DNA of 64,000 nt, from positions 1-64,000 of the forward strand of contig CAINGK010000122.1 in assembly GCA_903848465.1 (NCBI GenBank), written 5' to 3'. The notes under the pieces were generated by a model. The model ran no database searches. It was not told where the DNA came from and worked only from the letters and a program-made list of their open reading frames with translations. Both the position numbers and the translations under genes were made by a program. The DNA comes from an uncultured Verrucomicrobiota bacterium (GTDB lineage: Bacteria; Verrucomicrobiota; Verrucomicrobiia; Verrucomicrobiales; Verrucomicrobiaceae). This document shows, piece after piece, positions 42,063-47,687 of this stretch (position 1 is the first letter of the stretch; each line of letters starts with the position of its first letter).

Positions 42063-42147
42063 AACCACTAATCGGACACTAATCAGACACTAATTTTTGA
42101 ATTCAGAGGCTCGGATATTAGTGTTTCATTAGTGGCCATTAGTGGTT
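42063..42147. repeat. Hairpin repeat AACCACTAAT..CACTAAT..CACTAAT / ATTAGTG..ATTAGTGG..ATTAGTGGTT
   Basis: Three ACTAAT units facing three ATTAGT units over 85 bp. Confidence 0.8.
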
Positions 42148-42970
42148 AAGAATGATGGTCATAAAGCTGGCGATAACGCGCTGCGATTTGATCGAGGAAT
42201 TCCCCCTGATCCATCGCCCACAGACGGTTTGAAAAAATCTCCACCTCGCGATGCCCCGTGAAGCCGGTCGCATCCACCCAGTCGCTGATTTCTCGGATGT
42301 TGATGCAGCCTTCGCCCATGAGACCGCGATCATTCAGCAGGTCGATAGTGGGCGTCCGCCAGTCGCAGATGTGGAAGGCATGCAGGCGTCCGGTTTGACC
42401 TGCGAGATCAATCTGCGCCTTCAGCTCGGGGTCCCACCACACATGGTACACATCCACCGCGATGCCGACTGCTTTGGGCGATCCGAGCGCCTCGCAAATC
42501 TCATGCGCCTGGCGCATCGTGTTCACCGCGCTGCGATCATCCGCATACATCGGGTGCAGCGGCTCGATGGCCAGTTTCACCCCCGCCTGCTCCGCCGCAG
42601 GCAGCACCGCCGCGATGCCCTCGGCGATCTGCTTGCGCGACTCCACCAGCGACTGCCCCGGCACCGCGCCGCACACCAGCACAATGAGCGGAGCGCCAAT
42701 GGCATGCGCCTGCTCGATGGCCTGCAAATTGTCATCAATCGCCGTCTGCCGCCCGGCCGCCGTCGCCGCTGGGAAAAATCCCCCCCGGCACAGGCTCACC
42801 ACCTCCAGCCCCGCGTCCCGCGTCTGCCGTGCCACCGCTCCCAGATCACGCCCTTCCAGCGCCTGCCGCCAGATGGTGATGCCGCTGACGCCCCGCTTGG
42901 GGAACTCCACCAGGCATTCTTCCAGGCTCAGCGGTTTGGTGGTGATGGTGTGGACGCAAAGTCGGCGCAT
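42146..42970 (-). CDS. Sugar phosphate isomerase/epimerase (xylose-isomerase-like TIM barrel)
   Basis: GVKLAIEPLHPMYADDRSAVNTMRQAHEICEAL, VGIAVDVYHVWWDPEL; start chosen at 42970. Confidence 0.85.
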   Translation of the reverse strand: MRRLCVHTITTKPLSLEECLVEFPKRGVSGITIWRQALEGRDLGAVARQTRDAGLEVVSLCRGGFFPAATAAGRQTAIDDNLQAIEQAHAIGAPLIVLVCGAVPGQSLVESRKQIAEGIAAVLPAAEQAGVKLAIEPLHPMYADDRSAVNTMRQAHEICEALGSPKAVGIAVDVYHVWWDPELKAQIDLAGQTGRLHAFHICDWRTPTIDLLNDRGLMGEGCINIREISDWVDATGFTGHREVEIFSNRLWAMDQGEFLDQIAARYRQLYDHHS

Positions 42971-43069
42971 GCGAGGATTCTGCGCGGCATTGGAGGATTG
43001 GAAAAAGATTTCTTTCCAATCACCACCATTGGAAAACCTGATGGTAAGCGCCACCAACGATCAAAAGAC

Positions 43070-43884
43070 GCCCCCAGCCCCTTCGTTTCTCGTTTCCCCA
43101 CCAGGGGGCACAGTTATGGGAAACGAAGGGGGGTGAAATCAACCTATTTCATTGTTAGTCAATAAACTAAATGAAAAACAGAAGGAAACGAAGCACCCTG
43201 TTTTCATGGTGGTACTTGGAACAAGTCGCCCCCTTGGGCAGCCCGCACAAAGTCAAACAGCCCTTGCATTCCGTCAGTCAGGAGTGTATATATCATACAG
43301 TGGTATTAGATAATACCACTTCTTAACCCATGACGCAAGCCTGTGGCAGGTCCCACAGGAGGGGTGAGTGTGTACAGGATTTGTCCTGTCTTCCTTAGTT
43401 GGCCAACAAGGTGATTACCTGTTGGCAGGGCAGCCCCTGTGCCATCAGTAGTCCATGGCGTGACCCGCCCGCCGCCAAGGCCGGTGCGGCCAGGCAGCGC
43501 CAATTCACCACCTGACCTACCCCCACCACGAGTAACCAGGATGGTGCTCCGCCATGTTTCCCATATGGACTGCGGTTGCGCAGTGAGGAACGAACGGAGC
43601 TACCGCTTTCGCCGTGCAGGACGGCTCACGCTCACAATGCCATAACCGAAGGCGGAAACGGTTGGGTGGTCGCAGGCGGGTCAGCATACGAGTGCCACGA
43701 GACGCTCGAAAGCGGCTGCGCGCAGCCGCGCTCGTCTTGCGGCCATCTGCCCCCTGCCCCACCTTCGTTTCCACAAAATGTGCATATAGAGGGGGAAACG
43801 AGAAACAAAGTGCCTCAAAACCCATTTTACCCAGGGAAGACCGCCAACCGGGCGGCAACGGTGGAAACAAACAAGAAACGAAGG
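43070..43884. other. Non-coding, hairpin-rich region bounded by inverted CCTTCGTTTC / GAAACGAAGG motifs
   Basis: Multiple perfect or near-perfect hairpins, no convincing ORF; see findings. Confidence 0.55.
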
Positions 43885-44147
43885 AGTCGCCCCGCCAACC
43901 AACCGCCGCGTTCCCTCCAGACTCTTCACCCCACGCCGCAGTCTCCGCCTTGAGCTTCACGAACGCCCCTTGCCCCAGGCGACCCACCCAAGAATGACAC
44001 CTCTCAGGCAGCCCCCCTCATTCGGCATTCGGCATTCGTCTCCCCAGCCTCCCGCACCGCCCCGCAACGCACACGCCCCCAGCTTCTATCGTGGGAAAAA
44101 TCAACGCTGTCAGTCGCGTTACTACATGACAGCCGCCATTCAGATGC

Positions 44148-46190
44148 TTGTTTTGCGGCGAGGTCGCTATGAACACCCCCCAAGTTTTGCAGATCTTCGG
44201 ATTTGTCGTCCCTTTCAAACGGGAAGAAAAGGCAACGGGCTGTCAGCAAGCGCGGACGCTGAACGCCGCCATCGTGGCTAGAATGAGTTTCCTGGGCTTG
44301 CTGCTCCTCATGCTGACTCCACAGCGCGCACCGGGCCAGGAGGTGGCAGCAAGTCAGTTCGCTGCCGCCCCTGCCCGACCTGCCGCAGTGGCCATTTATG
44401 AAAACACGCCAGTGGCGACCGTGCGCCAGCAGGCCGAGCTGGGCCATGTGGTCGCACAGCGGCTGCTAGGCCTGCGCCTGACCCAAGGCACGGGTGTGCA
44501 ACGCAATGCAGCAGAAGGCGTGCAGTGGCTGCGCCGTGCCGCCGAGCAGAGCGATGCCAAAGCCCAGTACGCCCTGGGCCGTGCATACCTCCTCGGCACC
44601 GGCGTGGCGCAGGACACAGCGGCGGGGGTGAAGTGGTATCGACTGGCCGCTGAGCAGGGCAATGCCGACGCCCTCTACGGTTTGGGCCGTTGCTGCGCCC
44701 GTGGCACCGGCATGCCGCAAGACGCCGCAGCAGCGGTGCAGTGGTACCTCAAAGCTGCCGACCATGGCGATGCCAGAGCGCAGATCGCTCTGGGGAATGC
44801 CTTCATGCACGGCAGCGGCGTCGCGCAAGACACAACGGAGGCCCTGCGGTGGTACTTCACCGCCGCCGAGCAAGGCGATCCCGAGGGTGAGGATGCCGTG
44901 GCTCACGCTTACCTCCAAGGCGTGGGCGTATCGCAGAATACCCTCGCCGCATTGAACTGGCACCACAAAGCCGTGGGCCTCAGCCAACGCCTGGAGAACA
45001 ACCCGGCAGAGACCGCCAAGTGGTCCCTCCGCGCCGCTGAGCACGGGGATGTCTTTGCCCAGGTGGATCTGGCCCGCGCCTACTTCCAAGGCGCTGGGGT
45101 GCAGCGGGATGAGGTGGAGGGACTCAAGTGGTTCCAAAAAGCCGCCGAGCGGGGCGCGGTCTGCGCCCAGAATGAACTGGGCTACGCCTACATGCGCGGC
45201 AAGGGCGTGCCGATGGACCCCGTGGAAGGCGTGAAGTGGTATCGCAAAGCCGCCGAGCATGGCGATGCCAATGCGCAGTATGCCCTGGGGGTGGCCTACA
45301 CTCAGGGCGAAGGCGTGCGGCGAGACCCCGTGGAAGCTTTGAAGTGGTACACCCGAGCCATCGATCACGGCACTGGCAGCTCGAAGAACGCCGCTCCAGA
45401 AACCTTGCTCTTGCGATACGCTGACGCCGATAAAGCCAACGCCGGAGCACGCACCGGCCACCACCTCGACAGCAGCGCGGTGGCCCGTGCTCCTGGAGAA
45501 AGCATGCGCTGGCTGCGCAAAGCCGCCGAGAGTGGCGATGCCATGGCGCAATACACGCTCGCCACCGCCTACGCCACCGGCGACAGCACCACCCCAGACG
45601 CCGCCACTGCAGCGCAATGGTACCGCAAAGCGGCAGACCAAAACCACGCGCTGGCGCAGCTTGAGCTAGGTCGCCTCTACTTCTCCGGCGAGGGCGTCCC
45701 CAAGGATGTGGCCCAAGCCGTGAAGTGGACACGCAAGGCGGCGGAGCGCGGCAATGCCCAGGCGCAGGACGAACTCGGCAACTTCCACATGACCGGCCTC
45801 GGCATGGAAAAAGCCCCGGCAGATGGGGCGAAGTGGTACCAGAAAGCGGCGGACCAAAAGTACGCCGAAGGCCAATACCACCTGGGCATCTGCTACCACG
45901 ACGGCGTGGGCCTGACCCAGGACCTCGCAGCCGCCGCGCAGTGGTTCCGCAAAGCCGCCGAGCAGGACCAAGCCAGGGCACAGTACTCGCTGGGCCAGAG
46001 CTACCTGCTGGGAGAAGGCGTGAAGAAAGACGCCGTCGAGGCCCTCCAGTGGTTCCTCCTCGCCGCCGCCCACGACACCCCCGACGCCATCACCCAGGCC
46101 GAACAGATCAAACGCAACCTCACCGCCCCCGAAATCTCCACCGCCGAGTCCCGTGTGGAAAAGTTCCGCGCAGGCCGAGCGAAGAAGTAA
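44148..46190 (+). CDS. Sel1-like repeat (SLR) protein, secreted
   Basis: More than ten 36-aa SLR units (A..G.A.AQY.LG.AY..G.GV..D..EA.KWYRKAAE); start uncertain (44148, 44169 or 44283). Confidence 0.92.
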   Translation: MFCGEVAMNTPQVLQIFGFVVPFKREEKATGCQQARTLNAAIVARMSFLGLLLLMLTPQRAPGQEVAASQFAAAPARPAAVAIYENTPVATVRQQAELGHVVAQRLLGLRLTQGTGVQRNAAEGVQWLRRAAEQSDAKAQYALGRAYLLGTGVAQDTAAGVKWYRLAAEQGNADALYGLGRCCARGTGMPQDAAAAVQWYLKAADHGDARAQIALGNAFMHGSGVAQDTTEALRWYFTAAEQGDPEGEDAVAHAYLQGVGVSQNTLAALNWHHKAVGLSQRLENNPAETAKWSLRAAEHGDVFAQVDLARAYFQGAGVQRDEVEGLKWFQKAAERGAVCAQNELGYAYMRGKGVPMDPVEGVKWYRKAAEHGDANAQYALGVAYTQGEGVRRDPVEALKWYTRAIDHGTGSSKNAAPETLLLRYADADKANAGARTGHHLDSSAVARAPGESMRWLRKAAESGDAMAQYTLATAYATGDSTTPDAATAAQWYRKAADQNHALAQLELGRLYFSGEGVPKDVAQAVKWTRKAAERGNAQAQDELGNFHMTGLGMEKAPADGAKWYQKAADQKYAEGQYHLGICYHDGVGLTQDLAAAAQWFRKAAEQDQARAQYSLGQSYLLGEGVKKDAVEALQWFLLAAAHDTPDAITQAEQIKRNLTAPEISTAESRVEKFRAGRAKK

Positions 46191-46640: not shown

Positions 46641-47687
46641 ATGCGAAAACGGGGTTCTATCCTGGCGCGCGGTCATGGCAAGGGGCCGCTGGAGTCTTAC
46701 TGCTACCATGTCATGTCGCGCACCTGCGGCGGCGAGGTGTTCTTTGATGATGTGGAAAAAGAGGCGCTGCGCCGGGTGATGTGGCGCATGGCGGAGTTCT
46801 CGGGTCTCAAGGTGGTGACCTACTGTCTCATGAGCAATCATTTCCATCTGCTCGCCGAGGTGCCGCATCGCGGCACATGGTTGCAGCGCTTTGAGGGTGC
46901 GGATGGTGAGGTGAAGCTGCTGGAACACCTGAGCATCCTCTACAGCCGCGCTTACGTGGGCCTTTTGCGCGATGAATTGGCCGACCTACGCGCACGCGGC
47001 ATGGCCGTGCTGGCCGAGCAGCGAGTGGAGGCGCTTAAGAAGCGCTTCTGCGATCTCTCGCTGTTCGTCAAAGAGGTGAAGGAGCGTTTCAGTCGCTGGT
47101 TCAACAAACGGCGCGGAAGGCGTGGCACGCTGTGGATGGACCGCTTTAAAAGTGTGCTGGTCGAAGGCAAGGGTGAACCACTGCGCACGATGGAGGCTTA
47201 CATCGATCTCAATCCCGTGCGCGTTGGGTTGGTCAAAGACCCCAAGGAGTATCGCTGGTGTGGCTATGCGGAGGCACTGGGCGGCAGTCGCCGTGCGCAA
47301 CGTGGTTTGTGCAAAGCACTGGGCAAGCCGGTGGACGGCTGGAAGAGCGCGGACGCAGCAGCGGCGTATCGCTGCCTGCTGCATGCGGAAGGTCGCGAGG
47401 TGAAAGATGGGCAGAATGAGAAAGTGGTATCTCGTGGTGTGACGGCGGAGTCCGCCCGCGCCGTGCTGGCGGAGAAAGGCAAGCTCAGCCCTGCGGAGCT
47501 GGTGCGACTACGCGTACGCTATTTCACCGATGGCGTGGTTCTAGGCAGCAAGGAGTTTGTGGAAGGCATCTTTGACTCGCAACGCGAGCACTTTGGCCCA
47601 AAGCGCAAGCAAGGCGCGCGACGCATGACGGAATCAGACGCGCCGTTCTACACGCTGCGCCATCTGCGGCTTCGACCGCTGGGTTGA
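46641..47687 (+). CDS. REP-associated tyrosine transposase-like (RAYT / IS200-like Y1 HUH transposase)
   Basis: YHVMSRTCGGEVFF, YCLMSNHFHLLAEVP (HUH), MEAYIDLNPVRVGLVKDPKEYRWCGYAEALGG. Confidence 0.9.
   Translation: MRKRGSILARGHGKGPLESYCYHVMSRTCGGEVFFDDVEKEALRRVMWRMAEFSGLKVVTYCLMSNHFHLLAEVPHRGTWLQRFEGADGEVKLLEHLSILYSRAYVGLLRDELADLRARGMAVLAEQRVEALKKRFCDLSLFVKEVKERFSRWFNKRRGRRGTLWMDRFKSVLVEGKGEPLRTMEAYIDLNPVRVGLVKDPKEYRWCGYAEALGGSRRAQRGLCKALGKPVDGWKSADAAAAYRCLLHAEGREVKDGQNEKVVSRGVTAESARAVLAEKGKLSPAELVRLRVRYFTDGVVLGSKEFVEGIFDSQREHFGPKRKQGARRMTESDAPFYTLRHLRLRPLG

Follow-up and report, generated by a model that had tools for sequence, protein, structure and literature searches.

Between two ordinary genes of an uncultured Verrucomicrobiota bacterium lies an interval of about 0.8 kb that has inverted motifs at its borders. 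The locus raises the question of what such DNA is: (i) a structured non-coding RNA, (ii) a replication region or (iii) a mobile element, three guesses offered by an initial annotation. The second and third turn out to fit together, and support for the first is weak. Positions 43078-43884 are read here, with a probability of roughly 0.6, as a non-autonomous, gene-less, origin-bearing derivative of mobile replicon-like elements of the Verrucomicrobiales. Coordinates refer to the window, the whole 64,000-nt stretch that was analysed (G000:C122:1-64000), G000 being the source genome, a 6.05-Mb Verrucomicrobial draft.

Architecture of the interval and its junction

The interval separates a gene for a xylose-isomerase-like TIM barrel from one for a Sel1-repeat protein, neighbours as ordinary as they had first been taken to be. 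The features of the region are:

42146-43057, minus strand: TIM-barrel gene (xylose-isomerase-like), left neighbour of the non-coding interval
43053-44065, no strand: additional DNA, as seen by comparing the junction with that of the sister genome G002
43078-43131, plus strand: left-end dyad, CCCCTTCGTTTCTCGTTTCCCC ... GGGAAACGAAGGGG, with two tandem CGTTTC copies, 7 nt apart, facing one GAAACG
43184-43193, plus strand: isolated iteron-like copy GGAAACGAAG, an exact copy of the 10-mer
43252-43410, plus strand: conserved interior segment, common to the window element and five other gene-less elements
43264-43292, plus strand: promoter-like boxes TTGCAT-17-TATATA, predicted from a consensus match only and roughly kept in aligned relatives
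43299-43320, plus strand: small palindrome AGTGGTATTA/TAATACCACT; the hairpin at this place in most relatives has a different stem, GCCTGAT/ATCAGGC
43560-43720, no strand: dispersed repeat of ~160 bp with palindromic ends, outside the core element
43762-43810, plus strand: right-end dyad, CCTTCGTTTCC ... GGGGGAAACGAGAAACAAAG, inverted relative to the left end
43861-43884, plus strand: outward iteron-like repeats GGTGGAAACAAACAAGAAACGAAGG, 11 bp start to start
44148-46190: Sel1-repeat gene, right neighbour of the non-coding interval

The architecture is dyad, interior, dyad, and each end is itself palindromic, unlike simple terminal repeats. The arms of the left-end dyad are perfect over 12 nt, and the same unit is present in relatives; the two ends together form a long inverted pair (43076-43133 and 43758-43815; 58 nt, 74% complementary). 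Both dyads are imperfect, with 2+1 repeats, and are missed by a strict search for 2+2 repeats. Outside the right dyad, GGAAAC stands at 43863 and AGAAAC at 43874. The positions originally given for the inverted motifs are right to within a base or two, and the stretch at 43140-43330 is AT-rich as described. The absence of a convincing gene also held up: four ORFs from the interval were compared with Pfam, and none matched. Nor is the interval spanned by a decayed protein gene, though its conserved interior opens with 50 nt that look like the start of a RAYT transposase gene. This likeness, to codons 2-17 of a RAYT subfamily, involves window 43252-43305 and the loci L196 (1502-1551), L199, L200 and L116.

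The end motifs are clustered, not spread at a random genome-wide frequency. All four copies of GAAACGAAGG in the 64-kb window lie inside 43080-43884, against an expectation of 0.08 per window from dinucleotide shuffles, in which four copies were never reached. The five copies of the 9-mer GAAACGAAG in the window likewise all fall within 43080-43884; the highest count per 820 bp across 100 simulated 64-kb sequences (third-order Markov) was two. Across G000, GAAACGAAGG occurs 28 times compared with 12 for the reversed control, and the window's four copies are the sole tight cluster of this exact 10-mer in the genome.

The initial annotation had also called part of the interval hairpin-rich. The sequence in question, 43560-43720, is a separate dispersed repeat and not part of the core element, which ruled against the idea of a single repeat family spanning the full 0.8 kb. 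This repeat is found at 14 further places in G000 and at many in five related genomes, at about 69-94% identity, and also inside or beside other elements of the window kind. Its ends, ATATGGACTGCGG ... CCGCACTCCA, are palindromic and unlike the dyads in sequence. Copies in G000 lie on C91, C173, C132, C15, C206, C45, C167, C83 and others; several related species have about 15 copies per genome, at times in tandem.

The sister genome G002 retains both flanking genes in the same arrangement, only ~150 bp apart as against ~1,080 bp in the window, a junction shorter by ~930 bp. An empty site in a sister strain had been suggested as a check, and G002 is without the element at the equivalent junction. 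Some 85 bp of the G002 junction cannot be aligned, so that the insertion point, along with any target-site duplication, is placed only within 43053-44065. In most other relatives, as the neighbourhood comparison reads, a LysR-type gene adjoins the TIM-barrel gene.

Gene-less relatives at other loci

A search for homologous units elsewhere had been proposed in the initial annotation. Five further gene-less elements were found that share both ends and the interior segment, in three related genomes and elsewhere in G000. The first, a copy at G002:C83 (L022/L125), came from a search with the window interval; it matches in the interior rather than in the nested repeat and has the same palindromes on both sides. 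It is 70.7% identical to the window element over 239 bp (E=4e-30), and the two stand at unrelated loci. Pattern and similarity searches yielded the other four, beside genes named by reading the translated neighbours:

thyA side: gene-less elements L121 in G001 and L122 in G012
trpA side: gene-less elements L123 in G012 and L126 in G000, the latter running to the contig end, with its right end outside the sequence

Left ends, right ends and an interior segment of ~160 nt align among these elements. Matches of CCCCGTTTCCCGTTTCC in G009 were rejected as members of the family, since what they mark is another repeat, next to a RAYT gene.

The presence of six copies at four separate junctions speaks for mobility and against a stable chromosomal role. 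Such a role would be expected of a regulatory or incompatibility site, with iterons and palindromes that either titrate a replication protein or serve as targets of a host regulator. Titration of Rep by iterons is established for plasmids, and the promoter-like boxes and operator-like palindromes of the element are kept; the spread of the copies and the vacant junction in G002 nevertheless make this explanation highly improbable.

Conservation of the interior in six elements could instead reflect a structured non-coding RNA gene, with a transcript, started at the TTGCAT/TATATA promoter or made from the opposite strand, that folds into a functional RNA. On the minus strand the window copy folds with a z score of -7.9 for the whole unit and -4.1 for the interior alone, and the small palindromes give way in relatives to others at the same position. 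However, the inverted ends account for part of the whole-unit score, the interior of the relatives folds near background (z of -1.8 to +0.2), and no Rfam match exceeds the gathering score (Rfam 15). Covariance modelling was one of the checks proposed at the outset. A model of the interior (R1) run on 37 genomes has strong matches at exactly the six gene-less elements, with one other, weak match. Covariation is weak: the covariation term is +2.5 (unfavourable) on one alignment and about -3 to -4 (mildly favourable) on another. The presence of the interior in few of the 37 genomes searched also tells against a dedicated RNA gene, which is quite unlikely.

The G002 relative (G002:C83) itself lies between two inverted dyads that differ in specificity, GATGCC...CGCCTAAGCACGG...GGCATC, at L022 1131-1169 and 2246-2284, an arrangement that suggests nested elements. 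Solo dyads occur at L127 161-207 and L130 2313-2359, at a locus that has a primase-helicase element in G002 and G012; they are possibly remnants or partial sites. Near the solo dyad of L127 (G000:C40), at the contig start (~55-100), is a sequence resembling group II intron domain V (GAGCCGGATGCGGGAGACCTGCCAGTCCGGTTC).

Primase-helicase modules that share the ends

The same palindromes flank a two-gene unit at G002:C165, G012:C65 and G022:C12 and in the record behind L191. One gene encodes a primase (Toprim/PriCT-like here; across the modules, Toprim/PriCT or CHC2 zinc finger) and the other a RecA-like helicase (AAA_25) with a C-terminal winged helix. The structure prediction for the helicase is of low confidence (pLDDT 57), and a fold search, which returned RecA-like proteins only, counts as weak support. 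A profile HMM built from eight right ends at other loci (four gene-less, four primase-helicase), with the window left out, matches the window at 43762-43871 (E=2e-12) and again at the left dyad, 43131-43079 (E=1e-7). The ends of the window element accordingly belong to the same family as those of gene-bearing elements.

Behind the helicase gene, the dyad has two repeats in tandem opposite one or two further copies, around a CCTA-type centre. It lies at most about 130 nt past the gene end at 19 loci, which represent five families of the order; the helicase homologues examined include some only 34-39% identical. Exact 2+2 dyads of any sequence numbered 5 in 253 kb of control loci. The clearest cases have 9-11 GGAAAC copies within 165 bp, where 0.2-0.7 would be expected per 400 bp; the dyad of L190 and L185 is followed by nine to ten copies, several at 11-bp spacing. 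The repeats at 43861-43884 of the window match those behind the helicase genes in position and spacing. The repeat itself differs by helicase clade (GTTTCC, GTTGCC or TGTTGC) with unchanged geometry: helicase and repeat change together. Exceptions are G012:C65 and L191, where inserted repeats displace the dyad, and G051, where the dyad has another sequence; G018 has a helicase fragment only.

In the integrative islands L190 and L185, genes for integrase, primase and helicase are accompanied by an iteron-bearing dyad, and tRNA-Lys is close by; an excisionase-like helix-turn-helix gene is seen in L190, and an integrase is present in L179. Records matching the helicase of the relatives are named as Prosthecobacter sp., Verrucomicrobiaceae or Verrucomicrobia. 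No viral contig with the helicase or with the dyad pattern was found, and searches of plasmid DNA and of plasmid and phage proteins returned no useful match.

No match to the conserved interior of the gene-less elements came from the primase-helicase elements. Upstream of the primase gene (L188 3555-3905, L189, L191) runs a non-coding leader that is 84-86% identical, conserved like coding DNA, and holds a GGTGATTATCACC palindrome. An origin of the interior as a shortened form of this leader was considered and rejected: in gene-less elements the leader profile matches only the left dyad.

Inverted ends, several gene-less copies and a shorter sister junction are also what an ordinary transposon would leave, with dyads recognised by a DDE-type transposase and with primase and helicase as cargo genes. 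This would require a transposase, which was not found: the two-ended copies (2.5-4 kb) show neither an integrase nor any transposase except a RAYT-type gene inside L119. Moreover, one-ended integrase islands carry the dyad behind the helicase without an inverted partner. Transposition of this kind is improbable.

The RAYT-type genes deserve separate attention. The dyads could be REP-type palindromes, moved in trans by a RAYT (Y1) transposase, with the link to the helicase secondary. Like REPINs, they are short intergenic palindromes that occur singly or in inverted pairs; G000 has many RAYT-type genes, including one in the window (46641-47687, Y1-type transposase, PF01797), and the first 50 nt of the interior match the start of one RAYT subfamily at 18 bits, against at most 4 bits for reversed-sequence controls. 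REPs accompany their cognate RAYT, but the five full-length RAYTs of the subfamily nearest the interior in these genomes have no dyad within 1.5 kb, G000 is without a full-length copy of that subfamily, and no GTRG head stands beside the palindromes. The window-type elements are also of 0.5-0.8 kb with a conserved interior, in contrast with REPINs, and in five families it is the helicase gene that dyad and repeats track and change with. Movement by a RAYT is thus unlikely.

A probable origin-ended element and its possible helpers

The layout of the full-sized relatives has counterparts among known satellites. In SaPIs, the C-terminal domain of the Rep helicase recognises iterons directly downstream of its own gene, and a primase is encoded nearby (PMC7581432); PICIs have the same pri-rep-ori layout (PMC6092414). 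The Verrucomicrobial relatives resemble both in having a primase, a helicase with a C-terminal DNA-binding domain and, in the 19 loci of five families, iterons immediately behind the helicase gene. Full islands add an excisionase-like gene, an integrase and a nearby tRNA: L185 and L190 have integrase and tRNA, L179 has the integrase, and the two-ended copies lack them. The likeness has its bounds, as the helicase is RecA-like (AAA_25), homology to SaPI Rep is not established and no link to a phage was found. The window element differs further in its two inverted origin-type ends and its lack of genes, with no int, primase or rep and no ORF with a Pfam match in 43078-43884.

Plasmids of the IncQ/RSF1010 type offer a second comparison, combining primase, helicase and iterons with a pair of single-strand initiation sites in inverted orientation; their gene-less satellites, which retain oriV, depend on a full plasmid (PMC6925257). 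The elements described here are chromosomal, with no useful plasmid match; no RepC-like initiator or other third gene was seen in their modules, and their repeats are of 6-7 nt at 11 bp as opposed to iterons of ~20 bp. MITEs are similar in being gene-less, with inverted ends, several copies and a sister genome without the element; they differ in that no transposase partner was found here and the ends are origin-type dyads.

The preferred reading of the window as a dependent, origin-bearing element can be put in mechanistic terms by analogy with SaPIs, PICIs and IncQ satellites. Its ends would be origin-type sites, each with a CGTTTC/GAAACG dyad and, outside the right end, GGAAAC iterons at 11 bp. 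In the full-sized relatives, the winged-helix helicase most likely uses its C-terminal domain to bind the iterons, and opens up the dyad, whereupon the primase would start synthesis as in SaPI/PICI islands. The window element, having the sites and none of the genes, would depend on a resident primase-helicase element, acting in trans, for its replication and for an occasional move. The helicase copy of G000 itself (C76) is flanked by AAGTTTCC, not CGTTTCC, and a matching helper in this genome is therefore only putative.

A bolder proposal, doubtful at present, is that these elements form a mobile class with replication-origin dyads as termini and no transposase or integrase of their own, copied end to end by primase and helicase, and that gene-less parasites of 0.5-0.8 kb populate Verrucomicrobial genomes.

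If the origin-bearing reading is right, seemingly empty intergenic DNA would be parasitic on a replication module that the searches placed in Verrucomicrobial genomes alone, and in none of the phage or viral contigs covered. The several joint changes of specificity in helicase and iterons would offer a natural series for studying the choice of origin by self-loading helicases. It also raises the testable question of how origin-ended elements may move without a recombinase.
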